NCBI GenBank assembly: GCA_001787755.1
Contig: MFYJ01000012.1
Coordinates: 1-64,000, forward strand
Length of the DNA: 64,000 nt
Reading direction: 5' to 3'
Source: Candidatus Peribacteria bacterium RIFOXYB1_FULL_54_35
GTDB taxonomy: Bacteria; Patescibacteriota; Gracilibacteria; Peribacterales; Peribacteraceae
Position 1 is the stretch's first letter. Every line of letters starts with the position of its first letter. Below, piece by piece: positions 3,856-55,782 of this stretch. Both the position numbers and the translations under genes were made by a program. The notes under the pieces were generated by a model, which was given only the letters and a program-made list of their open reading frames with translations, had not been told where the DNA came from and searched no databases.

Positions 3856-5196
3856 ATGCTCCAGAGGGTCCGCGAACAGGTGGCGCTCCTCCTCATCGGC
3901 CTGCTCCCTCTGCATGCCTTCCTCGTCACCGTGGGGACGAAGATGCTTGAGGGGCCCGGTCATGCTCCGCTGCCGGTTCTCGCACTCTGGAAGGAAATCC
4001 TATTGCTGGTGATCCTGCTTCTTGCAACAGCGGAGTTTTCTGTGCAGAAGCAGCGGAGAATCCGCTTCGACCGTCTCGACGCCTGCATCCTCGTCCTCCT
4101 CGCACTCTCCCTCCTCGTCACGGCGCTCACGCATGGCAACTGGAAGCTCTACCTTTTCGGATTTAAGTACGACTTCATACCGCTCATTGCTTTCCTTGTT
4201 CTCCGCCGCGTGTCCTGGTCCACATGGTTCCAGCGTGCAGCAGTTGCGGTCATTATGACAGTGGGGGGCATGGTGGCGCTCTACGGTCTTGCGACACTTG
4301 CGCTCCCAATGTCCTTCTTCCGCGCGCTCGGGTACAGCGATCTCCATTCTCTCTACCTCCCAGGCGGTCCGCTCGCCGCATTCCAGCAGGTGGGCGGAGC
4401 GGGAGTGCGCCGGATTCAGAGCACCCTGAGCGGTCCCAATCAGCTTGGCTTGTGGCTGCTCCTTCCCTGGAGTTTCTGCCTGGTTCGCTTGTCCCTGAAG
4501 AAACCTCTGAAACATATCCGCGTTCTTCTGCTTCTCTCCGCCGTCGGCCTGGCACTGCTCTTCACCTTCTCGCGCACGGCGTGGCTCGCAGCGCTTGTCA
4601 TTGCCGTTGTATTTGCCATCAAAGTGATGCCGGGGCAGCGCGCAGGGAAGCATCTCATCCAACTCTTTGGTGCCGGTGTCATTCTGCTTGTCGTTGCCAC
4701 CATCATCTCTCCCACGACAGTGGTGCGGTTCGCTTCCAGCCGTGATCACCTGCTCAAACCTCTCGCTGCGGCGCAGTCCGTCTTCGCCCATCCCTTCGGG
4801 CAGGGGCTTGGCATCGCAGGCCCGGCAAGCAACCGCGTGAGTGATGCATGCGTGTTCCTGGAGGCAGGGGCGGATACAGGTTGGGCGGCAGACCGTCCGG
4901 ATCTCTGCGTGTTTGTCGGAGGAGAGCAAATGCAGCCTGCTGACCGCGCATGCAGCTGCCCGTTCGTCACCGAGAACTGGTATCTGCAGACAGGGGTGGA
5001 GATGGGGCTTCTTGGATTTGTTATTTTCCTCACACTCATCATCTTAGTTCTTCTTCAGCTCACAGCCGTTCCTGCAGTTTTCCTCCCATTCCTCGGCATC
5101 AGCGTTGCCGGTCTCTTCCTGCATGCGTGGGAGGAGAGCGCAGTTGCATACACGCTGTGGATGCTTGTGGCAGCACAGATTCAACAAAAGCGGTGA
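3856..5196 (+). CDS. O-antigen ligase/polymerase-like multi-TM protein
   Basis: ATG at 3856; about 10 hydrophobic helices; RIQSTLSGPNQLG and TENWYLQTGVEMGLLG are Wzy/WaaL-like. Confidence 0.75.
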   Translation: MLQRVREQVALLLIGLLPLHAFLVTVGTKMLEGPGHAPLPVLALWKEILLLVILLLATAEFSVQKQRRIRFDRLDACILVLLALSLLVTALTHGNWKLYLFGFKYDFIPLIAFLVLRRVSWSTWFQRAAVAVIMTVGGMVALYGLATLALPMSFFRALGYSDLHSLYLPGGPLAAFQQVGGAGVRRIQSTLSGPNQLGLWLLLPWSFCLVRLSLKKPLKHIRVLLLLSAVGLALLFTFSRTAWLAALVIAVVFAIKVMPGQRAGKHLIQLFGAGVILLVVATIISPTTVVRFASSRDHLLKPLAAAQSVFAHPFGQGLGIAGPASNRVSDACVFLEAGADTGWAADRPDLCVFVGGEQMQPADRACSCPFVTENWYLQTGVEMGLLGFVIFLTLIILVLLQLTAVPAVFLPFLGISVAGLFLHAWEESAVAYTLWMLVAAQIQQKR

Positions 5197-5208
5197 GTTT
5201 CCCCTTTC

Positions 5209-5715
5209 TCATGCGGCGCGCCGCTTCTTCCCCGGTTCACTGAGTATGGTGGGTTGCATGTCGAGTGTCTCACAGATTCCAGGGGCGCACTCCATGGTCT
5301 CGGGGTTATCCAGTACTTTGAGACGGGAGAGCGTGAGCAGATGGATTTTTACAATTTTGAATGCGATGGCATCTGGTTTCCGGCTAATGTCCTCATCCCA
5401 TGTTGGTACTCTGTCGAGATACGCATTGATCTCTGCATCTGAGGCAGTAAGTTCAAGATCATGGATTGCCGTGACCCACTCTTCATCGTCTACACCGTAC
5501 ATTGTGAGCAGATGTTTCTCCATCGCAAGGATCTGCTCAACATGTGCACGGACCTGATCCATTTCATCCTGGAGAAAAAGTTGGATGATTACGTCCAGTT
5601 GCTCCGGCGCCGTGGCGTCGCGTAATTCCTGCAGCCAACCGCGGAGGTTGTGCATCTCTGGTTGATTGGATTCTGGCATCGGGGACATTGTCTTTTGCAG
5701 GTCCTCTTTGGTCAA
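5209..5715 (-). CDS. Hypothetical protein
   Basis: 168-aa ORF, soluble helical, normal composition. Confidence 0.6.
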   Translation of the reverse strand: MTKEDLQKTMSPMPESNQPEMHNLRGWLQELRDATAPEQLDVIIQLFLQDEMDQVRAHVEQILAMEKHLLTMYGVDDEEWVTAIHDLELTASDAEINAYLDRVPTWDEDISRKPDAIAFKIVKIHLLTLSRLKVLDNPETMECAPGICETLDMQPTILSEPGKKRRAA

Positions 5716-12040: not shown

Positions 12041-12120
12041 CGTTTGCTCGTTTGCTCGTTCTCTCGTTGCTCGGCGTGTCTCGTTTTACGTGTCACGAGC
12101 AAACGAGAAACGAGAGAACG
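12041..12120. repeat. Low-complexity hairpin (TCGTTTGCTCGT type)
   Basis: Left arm tcgtttgctcgttctctcgttgctcg, right arm cgagcaaacgagaaacgagagaacga; starts at the base after the stop codon. Confidence 0.85.
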
Positions 12121-12201
12121 ATCTTGCTTTTTAATAGGTTGAATGCTGCCGAAGTTCTTGACGTGCTCAGTGGACTCTTCCAGAATCTGCACGCTTTTTC
12201 T

Positions 12202-12759: not shown

Positions 12760-12880
12760 AGCTTGTTAGCTTTATTAGCTTGTTAGGTTTATAGCTTCAT
12801 TAGAAAAAAATACCAAGGCACCAGGTTCAAAAATCCAAACCCCTAAAGAAGCTAATGAAGCTAATCGGCTAAGAAGCTAG
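12760..12880. repeat. Low-complexity hairpin (AGCTTCATTAG type) between convergent efp and gatB
   Basis: agcttgttagctttattagcttgttag... versus ctaaagaagctaatgaagctaatcggctaagaagctag. Confidence 0.85.
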
Positions 12881-15012: not shown

Positions 15013-15107
15013 TAGCTTGTTAGCTTCATTAGCTTCGTTAGGAAGGTACGAAGGAATCAAACCAAACATCTCTATCTCTAATGAAGCTAACGCAGCTAAT
15101 GAAGCTA
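15013..15107. repeat. Low-complexity hairpin (AGCTTCATTAG type)
   Basis: tagcttgttagcttcattagcttcgttag versus ctaatgaagctaacgcagctaatgaagcta. Confidence 0.85.
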
Positions 15108-15130
15108 AAAACTTGAGAAGCATGCAAGCT

Positions 15131-20428: not shown

Positions 20429-21262
20429 ATGAAACAATACCTCGATCTTCTCAGGGATGTGTACGAGAACGGCAAGAGCAAGGCAGACCGCACAGGCACT
20501 GGCACATTCAGCGTGTTTGGGCGGCAGTTGCGAGTGGATCTGAGCGAGGGCTTTCCGCTGCTTACCACGAAAAAGCTCCACACGCGTTCCATCATCCACG
20601 AACTCCTGTGGTTTCTGCGCGGCGAGACAAACATCCAGTACCTCAAGGAGAACGGCGTGCGCATCTGGGACGAGTGGGCGACGGAGGAAGGGGATTTGGG
20701 GCCGGTCTACGGCAGGCAGTGGAGGAGCTGGGCGTGCCCGGATGGTTCCACGGTCGACCAGATCAGCGATGTGATAGAGAAGATTAAAACCACGCCGCAC
20801 TCAAGGAGGCTCATCGTTTCCGCGTGGAATCCCGCGTTCCTTCCCGACGAGAGCATTAGTCCGCAGGACAATGTGCGGAGAGGGCGCATGGCCCTGCCTC
20901 CGTGCCATACACTCTTCCAGTTCTATGTGCGTGACGGAAAACTCAGCTGCCAGCTGTACCAGCGCAGTGCAGATATTTTCCTTGGTGTGCCCTTTAACAT
21001 TGCCTCCTACTCGCTTCTCACCCACATGATTGCGCAGGTGTGCGATCTCCAGGTCGGGGATTTTGTCCATACCTTCGGCGATGTGCACTTGTACTCCAAC
21101 CACTTAGAACAAGCGAAAGAGCAGCTCAGCCGTGAGCCGCGTACTCTTCCGCAACTCAAGGTGAACCCGGAGGTGAAGAACATTTTTACATTCACCTTCG
21201 GTGATTTCGAGATGCTGAACTACGATCCGCATCCAAGCATTAAGGCGCCGATTGCCGTTTAG
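20429..21262 (+). CDS. thyA: Thymidylate synthase
   Basis: [50 protein letters not shown] motifs. Confidence 0.96.
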
Positions 21263-21266
21263 GGAT

Positions 21267-21326
21267 GAGAATAAGAGAGTAAGAGGAAAAAGGTATGTCC
21301 TCACTTCCTCTTACTCTCTTATTCTC
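21267..21326. repeat. 22-bp perfect inverted repeat hairpin between thyA and folA
   Basis: gagaataagagagtaagaggaa / ttcctcttactctcttattctc with 16-nt loop. Confidence 0.92.
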
Positions 21327-21339
21327 TTATTCTTAAGCT

Positions 21340-28974: not shown

Positions 28975-29090
28975 ACGTTACTCTAGCAAAAGAAACAGAA
29001 GAATCGGAGGAAACAGAGGAGTTAGAGGGATTTCTTTCCTTTGAAGACTTTCCTCTGACTCTTCTGCTTCTTTTATTTCCTCTGCTTCCC
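28975..29090. repeat. Low-complexity purine/pyrimidine hairpin
   Basis: aaaagaaacagaagaatcggagga versus reverse complement aaaagaagcagaagagtcagagga; right arm ends at the base before a stop codon (29091). Confidence 0.85.
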
Positions 29091-50801: not shown

Positions 50802-53258
50802 CTATTCCTGCTTTGTTTCCGCCTCCCCTTCTACAGCTTTCTTTTTTCTGCGGTTCTTCTTTCTCTTCGGTTCGTTTCGTTCTCCTGCGCCTTTTCTGAG
50901 GAAGGCAGGGAGGAGCAGGGGGTCCTGTAATTCCTCGATCTGTTCAATAAGTCTCAGATCTTCCAGTGCTATCTTCCCAAGGTAGAGCCGGGTGAGATCG
51001 CCGCCATCCTCCACGAATCTCTCGATGGCACGCACACCGCGGAAGTAGACGACACCTTTTGTGAATCCGCCTGGTTCCGATGTATCGCAGAGCCCCCGCT
51101 TGATGGCGATGGTTTGGGTGAGCGCTCTTGCGGAGGAGAATCCCAGCTCTTCCCGAAGGTATTTCCGGGTTTCCGCGAAGGAATGATCGAGGCCGAAGGC
51201 AACGCCGAGGACGTTTCTTGGAGGGTTGTACCTCTTCTCATGAAAGGGACTGAGTACGCGGTTCTGGTTGAAGATGGAGAGGCCTTCCTGTGTGTCGAGG
51301 TAATTTGCGCAACCGTTTCTGAACAGTGCATATGGCTGGAGGGCTCCGTTCTCTGCGGTGAGGATGTGTGTTTCAATTTCATGTGCGATGAGGGCATCCA
51401 CATGCATCCGCTCAAAAAGCGCGCTTTCTCTGATATAGACCTTGTTTCCGCCGACTGTGCAGTCGGAGACGAGCCTCGGTCGTACCACCACTTCCCAATC
51501 GTGGAGACTGTAGCGTTCCAGTGCTTTTGTGAGAATATTCCGCGTTTCTTCCGATGTGAGGAGATCTTTTTTCTGTGGTGGCAGATCACAGGCAATGCGG
51601 TTGTGGAGTTCCGCCTTTGCTGCTCTGAGCAGTGCGGACGTGGGTGCGCCGAAGAGTTTCATGGAATATTCCGTGAAGCGTGCGGCGTGACCGCGCGACC
51701 GCAGGAGGGCGATGCGCGTGAGCAATTCCTGGCGCTTCTTCTCCAGCAAAATTCCCAGAGGTGAAGAGTCCTGCACAGGGTTCTCGAGTTTGCGTTCGGC
51801 TTCATCCAGATCCATTGCCACTTCTCTGTAATGGAAGATCGGGTTGTACTTACTGTCCTGTTCCAATCTCCCGCGCTCTTCCTCGAGGTTGGCAGGTTTG
51901 ATGTGTCTGAGGAGGAGCAGGTCGCGGTCCATTTGAGCGAACAGCTTGTCCACTACGCGGAGATCTGCTTTTACAGAAGCCTTCTGCGCCTGGATAGGTG
52001 TTTCTTTCGAGGGGTCGAGGAGGAATCCTGCGAGATCGCGGCGTCCGATCATTGCTCTCTCTTCTCCTGATACTTTACCTGTTCCCACGAGTGTCTGGAT
52101 TTTCTTGCCGGCGAGTGTGAACTTCACGCGGAAGGTTCGCTCCTTCTCGTCTTCCACTTCCAATGCGCCCGTTCTTTGCAGGCTTTCGATAAGTTCCGGG
52201 GAAAACACTGTTCTCTCGTGCTCCGGGGTAATGAGGCAGGGCACTTCTATATTCACACCGTCACCACTAATCACAATATTCTCGTTTGTTCCGAGAATTG
52301 TTTTTTTGTTCTCAGGTTCTTTCTCTGTTCTCTTTGCTTTTCCTTCTCCAAAGAGATCCTGTCCCATACGTACGCCTTTCTCCGGGCTGTTCACCTTCAC
52401 GCCTATGACTCGCTCGAGTCTCGCACGGAGCGGTGCGAGGTTGGCAACCTGCACCATCAGTCCGGCGCGCGCATTCACTTCCAACAATGCCGGGCCCATG
52501 TGCTGATCGATGGTGATATCCACAGCGAGGTAGCCGATATTCGTGATCTGCTGAATGCGTGAGCTCACTTCGAGGATTTCATTCCAGTGTGGAATCTGGA
52601 TCCCGCTCGGAGAACCCCCGTGGGGCAGTTCCGTGATGATGCTGTGGTACTGGGCTGCATGCGTTGTCACCCCCTTTGCAAGGTCAATGCCAATGCCTAT
52701 GCCCCCAAGGTGAATGTTTGCTTTCCCCTCGCTCTGAGCAGTGGGGATACGGAGCATGGCCATGACGGGGACCAGGTTGAAGACAATGACACGGATGTCC
52801 GGGAGGCCGGCTGGCCGGAAGCGCGCGAAGCACTCATGGGGGATGAGGATCTGCTCAAAAAATGCGGTATCTTTTCTCCCGTTTACAGAGAACATGCCGT
52901 CGAGAATGTCTTCGATGTGCTCAGTAATTTCCTGGTTGGTCATTGGTTCTTTTCCCCGGAGGAATACTCCCTTCCTCCGTCCGTTGAAAACGAGGATTCC
53001 CTCGCCGCCAAAGCCAAAGTTCGGCTTGAGTACGCATTCATCCGGGAGTTGGGAAAAATCAAAATCTCTCAGCTGTTCCCGCGTTTCTATGCGTGCGTAG
53101 ATTTTCGCCGTCGGGACGCCGCGTGCGGCGAGGAATGCTTTCGTTTTGAGTTTGTCATCTGCGAAGGCAACTGCTTTTCGCGGGTTGAAAGGTTTCACGT
53201 AGAGGAGATTCCTTGCGTTGAGTCCCAGGATGCCGTGGTTAGAGAGGAAGGAGAACAT
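50802..53258 (-). CDS. ATP-grasp ligase (RimK-related/ATPgrasp_ST-like) fused to aspartyl-protease-like and DUF1704 (MATCAP-like) metallopeptidase domains
   Basis: LGLNARNLLYVKPFNPRKAV, VLKPNFGFGGEGILV, LLEVNARAGLMVQVAN; middle IEVPCLITPEHERTVF...VGTGKVSGEERAMIGRRDLAGFLLDP; C-terminal HEIETHILTAENG...TQEGLSIF. Confidence 0.82.
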   Translation of the reverse strand: MFSFLSNHGILGLNARNLLYVKPFNPRKAVAFADDKLKTKAFLAARGVPTAKIYARIETREQLRDFDFSQLPDECVLKPNFGFGGEGILVFNGRRKGVFLRGKEPMTNQEITEHIEDILDGMFSVNGRKDTAFFEQILIPHECFARFRPAGLPDIRVIVFNLVPVMAMLRIPTAQSEGKANIHLGGIGIGIDLAKGVTTHAAQYHSIITELPHGGSPSGIQIPHWNEILEVSSRIQQITNIGYLAVDITIDQHMGPALLEVNARAGLMVQVANLAPLRARLERVIGVKVNSPEKGVRMGQDLFGEGKAKRTEKEPENKKTILGTNENIVISGDGVNIEVPCLITPEHERTVFSPELIESLQRTGALEVEDEKERTFRVKFTLAGKKIQTLVGTGKVSGEERAMIGRRDLAGFLLDPSKETPIQAQKASVKADLRVVDKLFAQMDRDLLLLRHIKPANLEEERGRLEQDSKYNPIFHYREVAMDLDEAERKLENPVQDSSPLGILLEKKRQELLTRIALLRSRGHAARFTEYSMKLFGAPTSALLRAAKAELHNRIACDLPPQKKDLLTSEETRNILTKALERYSLHDWEVVVRPRLVSDCTVGGNKVYIRESALFERMHVDALIAHEIETHILTAENGALQPYALFRNGCANYLDTQEGLSIFNQNRVLSPFHEKRYNPPRNVLGVAFGLDHSFAETRKYLREELGFSSARALTQTIAIKRGLCDTSEPGGFTKGVVYFRGVRAIERFVEDGGDLTRLYLGKIALEDLRLIEQIEELQDPLLLPAFLRKGAGERNEPKRKKNRRKKKAVEGEAETKQE

Positions 53259-53259
53259 G

Positions 53260-53697
53260 AAGGGTTAGGGTTTGGGTTAGGGTTAGGAATGTGCAAATTT
53301 CTGAATCAATCCGCTCAGGAGTCTCCCCGTTTCATCCGATAAATTTTTTGCACGGGATGTTTCCTTCTGCTGGAGCAGTCCAAGTTCTTCGCACACGAGG
53401 AGCAAGGCTTTTACTTCGGAGCATTCCCCCCTTGAGGTTGTATACTTGTGTGCTTTGTCCGCAGCTGTCGCCCGGCTGAACCCTTCTGCCAAGTTTGCGA
53501 GAATACTCACGACGGCACGCCGGATTTGTGCGGTGAGGCCGTACTGTTCTTCGGGAGGGAGTTTCCTTGTGAGGACATACGCCTCTTTCACGAGTTGCAT
53601 TCCCTTCTGCCACACATCGAGGTCAGTGAACGATTCCATAGGTCATTTTGGGTACTTAATTCTCAATTCCTAACCCTAACCCTATCCCCAACCCTAT
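53260..53697. mobile_element. Candidate element: telomere-like inverted repeats flanking a four-helix-bundle gene
   Basis: gggttagggttaggaat (53274-53290) is an exact inverted match to attcctaaccctaaccc (53666-53682). Confidence 0.6.
53283..53639 (-). CDS. Four-helix-bundle protein (S23/IVP, Avd-like family)
   Basis: FTDLDVWQKGMQLVKEAYVLTRKLPPEEQYGLTAQIRRAVVSILANLAEGFSRATAADKAHKYTTSRGECSEVKALL. Confidence 0.92.
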   Translation of the reverse strand: MESFTDLDVWQKGMQLVKEAYVLTRKLPPEEQYGLTAQIRRAVVSILANLAEGFSRATAADKAHKYTTSRGECSEVKALLLVCEELGLLQQKETSRAKNLSDETGRLLSGLIQKFAHS

Positions 53698-55214
53698 TCC
53701 TCCTGAAGGTGCTTAAAGACTTCGCGGAAGCGAAAGTACTCTACGAGGCGCAAACCGGTCCATCTCCCGAGTATGGCATCGGCGGCGATGGTGAACAGGA
53801 TAAGTTCAGGGTAGGCGAGGGCGAACGACTGGAGCCAGGGCCACTGCACAATGAACACGCAGAGGAGAGCCGCAAGGATAGTTTCGCCAGTTCCGAGGAT
53901 GGCGCTGTAGAGGCCCTCTTCTGTTTTCACGTTCAGGAAGCTCTCGGAGAGCGTGGACATAATGAGGAGCACGAAGATCGTGTCTCTGGCGAGGATGATA
54001 TGGAAGAGCGTTCCCAGCCCAAGGAGCAGAAGAAGGGTGATACTCACGACTGTGATGACAATGGCAACTTTTGGGATGTAGAGCAGCCGCCAGCGGCGCA
54101 TGAATGCCCGCGTTGCATACCCGGTTATGATGATGAAGAGAAGGAAGGCAAGCCCAATGGGCCATCCCAGCGCGAGGAAGCTCAGGGCAACTACGGATGG
54201 AGTGTAGAGTCCGAATGTTGTAATGCCGATCACCTGTTTTAAGAACGCCAGGATCATGGCTATGACGGGGAGCATGAGAAGCAGGATCACCGTTTGGCTG
54301 GAAACGCCGTGCGTGAGCATGTAATTCACGAGAGACGAGAGCAGATTCCATGGGCGTATACCTGTCGTTGACTTGTCCACAATCAGGTAGTCGGTGTCCC
54401 GCTTATCGAGTTCCTCCACGAACTGCTCCACGGTAGCCGATGAGATGAGGGGGTTCATGGCCACTCGCCGTGTGATGAGAATCTGTCTTGGCCCGAGGAC
54501 TGAGAATGGCCCGCGCGCAGTGCGTCCCAGTACTTTCAGGTTGCGGTCGGAGATGAGCACAATGCTCTGATTTTTCATACTCTGCATGCGCTCCGTGTCC
54601 TGCTCGATGGCACGCATGAATGCCTGCAGGCCTGTGATCCCCTCCGTCCAGAGCACGATGGCCGAAGCGCCGTTCAGAGCAGAGGACTGTTCTTGGATGA
54701 GTTTCACCAGCGCTTCTTCGGTGCCGAGCGGCGCGCCGGTAATTACCGGCTGAAGGACACGGAGAAATACGCCTTCCTCTGCAGCAGTTTGCTGGTGAAT
54801 CTGCAGCTTCTCCGTTGGGATGCTGCTGTCTGCTATCAGTACGATCTTCCGTTCGTACACGGTGATTTGCTTCTCTACTTCAGCTTCCACTTCCTCGCCG
54901 TCGATTGTGGTGCTGACAACGAGACGGATGGAAGTGACGCCCGGTTCTTCCGGAGTGTACACCGCCTCTACCGTGCGGCTGATGGGTTGCGGGAGACTGT
55001 CTCTGTACCAGCGGTAACTTACGTCTTCTCCCACACCCACGGATGCCGAGGCATCGAGAACGAGGGTTCGCCCTACTGCTATGTCGTCGGGTCCTCTGAT
55101 AATAGGAGTGAGTGGCACTCCCACTCCCAGCACTTCTCCTGTTGCAGCCACCGCAGGGAGTGCGATGCTACAGGTGACTGAGAGAAAGCCGAAGAGAGCG
55201 ATGAGGCGTTTCAT
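53694..55214 (-). CDS. 7TM membrane protein of the '7TM_transglut' type with N-terminal extracytoplasmic domain
   Basis: Signal peptide, Ig/PKD-like segment, then 7 TM helices with VIGITTFGLYTPSVVALSFLALGWPIGLAFLL. Confidence 0.8.
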   Translation of the reverse strand: MKRLIALFGFLSVTCSIALPAVAATGEVLGVGVPLTPIIRGPDDIAVGRTLVLDASASVGVGEDVSYRWYRDSLPQPISRTVEAVYTPEEPGVTSIRLVVSTTIDGEEVEAEVEKQITVYERKIVLIADSSIPTEKLQIHQQTAAEEGVFLRVLQPVITGAPLGTEEALVKLIQEQSSALNGASAIVLWTEGITGLQAFMRAIEQDTERMQSMKNQSIVLISDRNLKVLGRTARGPFSVLGPRQILITRRVAMNPLISSATVEQFVEELDKRDTDYLIVDKSTTGIRPWNLLSSLVNYMLTHGVSSQTVILLLMLPVIAMILAFLKQVIGITTFGLYTPSVVALSFLALGWPIGLAFLLFIIITGYATRAFMRRWRLLYIPKVAIVITVVSITLLLLLGLGTLFHIILARDTIFVLLIMSTLSESFLNVKTEEGLYSAILGTGETILAALLCVFIVQWPWLQSFALAYPELILFTIAADAILGRWTGLRLVEYFRFREVFKHLQEE

Positions 55215-55681: not shown

Positions 55682-55782
55682 CTGAGGAAATAAATGCAAT
55701 GAACGCAATAAAGGAAATAAAGGATGCCCATCGTTTATTGCGTTTATTTCTTCTATTTCTTTTGTTTCCTTACCGGTGCCTG
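55682..55782. repeat. Low-complexity hairpin (AATAAACGCAATAAA type)
   Basis: aggaaataaatgcaatgaacgcaataaaggaaataaaggatg versus catcgtttattgcgtttatttcttctatttcttttgtttcct. Confidence 0.85.

Follow-up and report, generated by a model that had tools for sequence, protein, structure and literature searches.

S23/IVP genes between inverted arrays of short words point to a small mobile repeat system in Patescibacteria

In the genome of Candidatus Peribacteria bacterium RIFOXYB1_FULL_54_35, a short gene of the S23/IVP type lies between two protein genes, enclosed by arrays of a short word that are inverted copies of each other. The question raised by this locus is how such a unit came to stand there, and whether gene and arrays belong together. 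An earlier, sequence-only reading had proposed a small mobile or repeat-synthesis unit, whose protein recognises or helps to make the repeats. The locus was followed up in the whole 64,000-nt stretch analysed (the window; contig MFYJ01000012.1, positions 1 to 64,000), in the rest of the genome and in other genomes.

The locus and its empty sites

The enclosed gene (53283..53639, minus strand) encodes 118 aa, and its suggested S23/IVP identity was confirmed, since both curated profile cut-offs are far exceeded (PF05635, 113 bits against 33.8; TIGR02436, 105 bits against 24) and a four-helix bundle is predicted. AF2 reached a pLDDT of only 58 on the single sequence; an alignment of five sequences was used instead, giving four helices at pLDDT 93. 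The best Foldseek matches of this model, 2gsc (TM 0.85) and 2rld, are S23 proteins with five chains each. Upstream of the insertion lies a 7TM_transglut/RloB-like gene (53694..55214, minus strand) and downstream an ATP-grasp plus MATCAP/QEGLA gene (50802..53258, minus strand). The latter is a fusion of ATPgrasp_ST and MATCAP/QEGLA peptidase domains adjoining the 7TM_transglut gene.

The left arm (53261..53290) is an AGGGTT-type array of ~4.5 units and the right arm (53666..53697) an inverted array of ~4.7 units, both with a 6-nt unit according to TRF. Counted as 30 nt each and 375 nt apart, with the right arm ending at 53695 or 53697, the arms are 90% complementary, and their score of 22.5 compares with a maximum of 16 in 2000 dinucleotide-preserving shuffles of both flanks. 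The inverted arrays described earlier are therefore real, and they do carry the stop codons assigned to them, the S23 TAA (53283-53285) on the left and the TAG of the 7TM gene (53694-53696) on the right. The 17 identical bases reported for the arm termini also exist, but at the inner and not the outer arm ends. The label "telomere-like", on the other hand, had to be dropped as incidental, the unit changing from element to element.

The two host genes are separated by 436 nt in the window. At the same junction the distance is 0 nt in a genome of the same genus (G001), where TAA is directly followed by ATG, and about ten further members of the family have 0-15 nt there. The gene and its arrays are therefore an insertion between an ancestral pair, as the sequence-only reading had supposed when it proposed this very comparison. 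Different gene-less array pairs (hereafter solos) occupy this junction in at least five genera. The junction of a comM-like and a pyrF-like gene, names assigned by inspecting the encoded sequences, measures 5-29 nt in three genomes (G010, G187, G040), with an AGGGTT-type S23 element in two others (G000, G014) and a decayed one in G019. Likewise, the window solo at 21259..21338 (GAGAATAAG type) is missing at the orthologous junction of G001, where its two flanking genes abut. Insertion with an empty site in relatives, the criterion for MITEs and autonomous transposons, is met at three junctions. No clear target-site duplication was found at the junctions examined, and a recent jump was not observed for any copy with a gene, since the S23 genes within one genome have all diverged.

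Two further observations concern these sites. The start of several insertions coincides exactly with a TAG stop codon that runs on into a TAGGG-type array (window position 53697; loci L006 and L300), hinting at a choice of target by the array word. At the comM/pyrF junction of two genomes (L298 in G005, L294 in G013), a RAYT/Y1-like ORF, identified by eye from its translated start, stands in place of the S23 element and has no visible arrays on either side.

Arrays at other S23 genes and without a gene

The genome of the window (1.56 Mb, 16 contigs) has seven PF05635 genes, all with inverted degenerate tandem arrays, which fall into six unit families: GTATGTCG, TTAGCTTCA, GTAGNTT, AATAGGGATTAG, AGGGTT (twice) and CAGARGAAA. 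For the arm test, the 400-nt left flank of each gene was aligned to the reverse complement of the right flank, and a score of at least 14, the 99% quantile of random 315-nt intervals of the genome, was taken as positive. This score was reached by 84.6% of 91 S23 genes in ~29 related genomes, against 2.1% (between genomes) and 3.6% (within genome) of mispaired-flank controls and 1 of 29 genes of PF02482, a control family of similar gene size from the same relatives. Enrichment of arrays at PF05635 genes, the other check proposed, thus held (85% against 2-4%), and together with the empty sites it supports the reading as a mobile unit.

S23 is present in 163 of the 291 sampled genomes of the phylum, and arms were found at 22 of 26 S23 loci elsewhere in it. 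They also flank 7 of 11 S23 genes on cyanobacterial plasmids, those of one Gemmatimonadota plasmid and one Acidobacteriota contig, and both S23 genes found on viral contigs; the one alphaproteobacterial locus examined is without arms. Locus L056, one of only three relatives found in a scan of genome contigs, apparently from an already sampled genome and with arms identical to those of L097, was left out of the counts. Among the plasmid loci L214 (Picosynechococcus), L216 (Pseudanabaena) and L218 (Nostoc edaphicum), S23 genes with arrays were seen within CRISPR operons, separating cas10 from cmr3 and cas6 from cas4, and also between ribonucleotide reductase genes. A 23S rRNA IVP domain has been listed near Cas loci (PMC10910872), and S23 elements within CRISPR operons may be the explanation of such reports.

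About 30 solos, with loops of mostly 10-90 nt, came out of an unbiased scan covering ~390 kb of the window's genome. In the window, two are of the TTAGCTTCA type, one at 15013..15111, which shares its unit with S23 locus L002, and one at 12760..12879, whose loop is homologous to those of the solos at 15013, 120721, 152112 and 206512 on the same contig. The solos of this family have a common loop sequence and were therefore copied, not made afresh; beyond such subfamilies, no loop motif common to all solos was found. A solo of CAGARGAAA type (28988..29074) shares its unit with S23 locus L007. For an array-like hairpin of GAAATAAA type (55685..55768) no cognate S23 was found in its own genome. 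The array pair at 12041..12121 (CGTTNCT type) resembles arrays flanking the S23 genes L093 and L103 of other genera, with none in its own genome; it represents one of two orphan solo families with a cognate S23 elsewhere, the other being TAGCGNN, whose partner is in same-genus G001 (L017).

In five genomes taken together, 60% of 53 solos have a match at p<0.05 among the S23 arrays of the genome they lie in, where 5% would be expected, and a repeat family common to S23 flanks and dispersed solos, the criterion for a REPtron, is in this way met. Solos numbered 58 in 1,174 kb from 20 S23-bearing genomes against 1 in 678 kb from 19 S23-free ones. When the comparison is kept within the same family, the figures are 51 in 850 kb (six S23-bearing genomes) against 1 in 215 kb (three S23-free). 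A Fisher test on such counts overstates the evidence, because the independent units are genomes and not hairpins. Taken together, S23 arrays and matching solos point to a small mobile repeat system so far unrecognised.

It could be argued instead that S23 is a mere passenger, inserting into hairpins of arrays that slippage had already made and that serve the host as terminators or stabilise its mRNA. The solos of the window's genome do carry the S23-array word and are intergenic, only 2 of 31 lying inside long ORFs (which make up 80% of the sequence), as this explanation would have it. However, S23-free genomes are nearly without solos, the empty junctions have no array and, as detailed below, array words track the protein clade across genomes. 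T-runs, moreover, follow only 3 of 56 hairpins, for which reason a terminator role of solos was rejected. The passenger explanation is accordingly given little credence.

Inverted repeats of other kinds were met as well. A REP-like family (GTCATGGTTCGACC / TGTCATGGTGAGC), unrelated to the S23 arrays, was seen at L045 13626-14113 (C12:193626-194113), and a perfect 50-bp inverted repeat at L047 106-1678 (C13), whose two copies, about 1.5 kb apart, may mark an insertion sequence at either end.

Array words, protein and mechanism

Across genomes, array k-mer similarity rises with S23 protein similarity (Mantel r -0.31). In 2000 permutations the value never fell as far, the lowest being -0.09, or -0.18 with arrays permuted within genomes only. 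This co-variation is partly expected from physical linkage alone, and the specificity of the protein for its array is not strict, because some close proteins carry different arrays (L103 and L107, 74% identical). As far as sequence comparison can tell, the arrays are inherited as part of the S23 element, linkage explaining part of the pattern and exceptions existing.

The number of words per arm is the more constant quantity. S23 arms have a median of 4.6-4.8 copies for 6-, 7-, 8- and 9-nt units alike, longer units giving longer arrays (rho 0.41, p 4e-7) without a change in copy number (p 0.56), and solo arms have 4.4 copies (interquartile 4.1-4.9). Tandem arrays in S23-free genomes, collected at a score threshold of 30 vs 24 for S23 arms, behave in the opposite way, their length staying constant and their copies dropping from 3.8 to 2.6. 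Longer-than-usual arrays were found at Pseudanabaena L216 and Acidobacteriota L057; in the latter (4400-5300) the arms are about 146 nt long, with a 20-nt unit instead of the usual 6-9-nt word.

From the co-variation of unit and protein and the constant ~5 units per arm, it is a good inference, albeit one without binding data, that the S23 protein recognises its repeats. A word-per-subunit reading has a precedent in TRAP, a ring protein that reads repeated triplets. One word per S23 subunit is inferred here, ~5 words per arm being in line with a homopentamer, the state of the Xanthomonas S23 protein (PMC4990558).

The arms might also act in RNA. In that case the unit would be kin to the intervening sequences (IVSs) of 23S rRNA, though standing on its own, with arms that pair in the transcript and a stem that RNase III cuts out. 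The layout is similar, as IVSs encode S23 and have complementary ends (a 28-bp stem in Coxiella; PMC4990558). Nevertheless, mismatches on the gene strand of S23 arms show no bias (G-U 75 vs A-C 71), and in four of five unit families, some of only 2-3 members, pairing is as good between elements as within them, the exception being GTAGNTT (17.7 within vs 13.0 between). Furthermore, 20 S23 loci contain no rRNA or other Rfam family, except one tRNA. Judged by the RNA-stem criterion for IVSs, complementary ends are present without any RNA-pairing signature, cleavage data being unavailable. An RNA stem as a maintained feature was rejected on the mismatch and pairing results, and kinship of this kind with IVSs is considered unlikely. 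The units consist of an invariant core and free positions, and the 5' arm is poor in C (9% C, 31% G; G exceeds C at 73 of 77 loci). The absence of G-U bias, pairing between elements that equals pairing within them in four of five families, and the core with free positions are the reasons for reading the arms as putative inverted arrays of DNA words bound by a protein, forming the ends of a small dispersing element.

A different role is suggested by Avd, the protein of diversity-generating retroelements (DGRs) with which S23 had been called homologous. The S23 model finds Avd directly after the S23 proteins themselves (4dwl, 8ub7; TM about 0.8), and S23 matches the PHROG Avd family; the likeness stands at the level of fold only. 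S23 could then assist, in the manner of Avd, a reverse transcriptase (RT) that is encoded elsewhere and has escaped notice, delivering array RNA to it for copying via cDNA. Neither the genome, without a match to RVT_1 (PF00078), nor the arms, without an RNA-level signal, favour this improbable explanation, although a divergent RT is not excluded. No match to the Y1 transposase (PF01797) was obtained in the genome either, and both enzymes were rejected as the catalyst. Since S23 has no known catalytic domain and the genome neither RVT_1 nor Y1 match, the breaking and joining of strands remains unexplained; nor does the element contain a known transposase domain. A defence system was likewise rejected, for want of a PADLOC match.

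The preferred reading, which is given a probability of roughly 0.6 with its whole mechanism, is that the feature in the window belongs, as one copy, to a family of small DNA elements that disperse, the S23 elements. The autonomous form would be the unit observed, a single S23 gene between two inverted arrays of ~5 degenerate, element-specific words of 6-9 nt each. The solo pairs, whose families match, would be non-autonomous copies, their derivation being inferred. In all likelihood the S23 protein, pentameric in its solved homologues, contacts a single word with each subunit in either arm and so draws both ends together, a step for which binding data are lacking. With unidentified host DNA enzymes, it would then let element and solos alike enter new positions between genes, insertion being observed and its mechanism inferred. 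In the window, one such element inserted between the stop codon of the 7TM gene and the start codon of the ATP-grasp gene.

S23 elements among known systems

Both the S23/IVP proteins and the degenerate repeats of heptamer type are widespread and unexplained, and linking them provides each with a testable role. The link explains an intergenic repeat class in Patescibacteria, and probably in cyanobacteria, and it connects DNA dispersal with a protein in which no nuclease domain is known. The ~5 words per arm beside a pentameric protein are a concrete and cheaply testable prediction.

With the Avd of DGRs, S23 shares its fold and a distant sequence similarity; S23 elements differ from DGRs in that the genome has no RT match and S23 stays under the Avd equivalog cut-off (30 vs 80 bits). 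Like the REP/RAYT system (REPtron; PMC3733652), S23 elements combine dispersed intergenic inverted repeats with a partner gene flanked by them. Their partner, however, is a four-helix bundle without HUH/tyrosine transposase domain, and their arms are tandem arrays of variable words, with several word families per genome.

Heptamer repeats, often in convergent pairs, have been described in Xanthomonas and Nostoc (PMC4692102), in Beggiatoaceae, cyanobacteria and Bacteroidetes (PMC4679880) and in Geobacter (PMC2700814), and STRR hairpins in Nostoc (PMC2670836), these sources having been available in part only. As far as those parts go, they resemble S23 arrays in being 7-8-nt tandem, intergenic repeats, often in convergent inverted pairs, and differ in that no partner gene is given; S23 is not mentioned in the accessible portions of PMC4692102, PMC4679880 and PMC2700814. 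On the Nostoc plasmid pNe_5, AGGGAGT arrays are found at the S23 gene and again as a solo. That STRR/heptamer repeats beyond the sequences analysed would be S23 elements is inferred by analogy. No report linking S23 to arrays, or heptamer (STRR) repeats to S23, was found, but subscription journals lay outside the search and priority is not certain.

The IVSs of 23S rRNA (Leptospira, Coxiella) likewise have an S23 gene between complementary sequences and, according to the part of the source available, are suspected to be mobile (Ralph and McClelland 1993, cited in PMC4990558). S23 elements, unlike them, were outside rRNA at 20 of 20 loci tested, the window copy lying between protein genes; their arms are degenerate ~5-unit arrays of an element-specific word, and solos are dispersed in the same genome. 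A wider proposal, which can only be tentative, would make S23 a separate class of bacterial mobile DNA, with a catalytically unclassified pentameric ring reading one word per subunit and ends of five-word inverted arrays. The STRR/heptamer repeats, known since 1990, would then have their missing source in S23 elements, and the IVSs of rRNA would be copies that had landed in rRNA loops.
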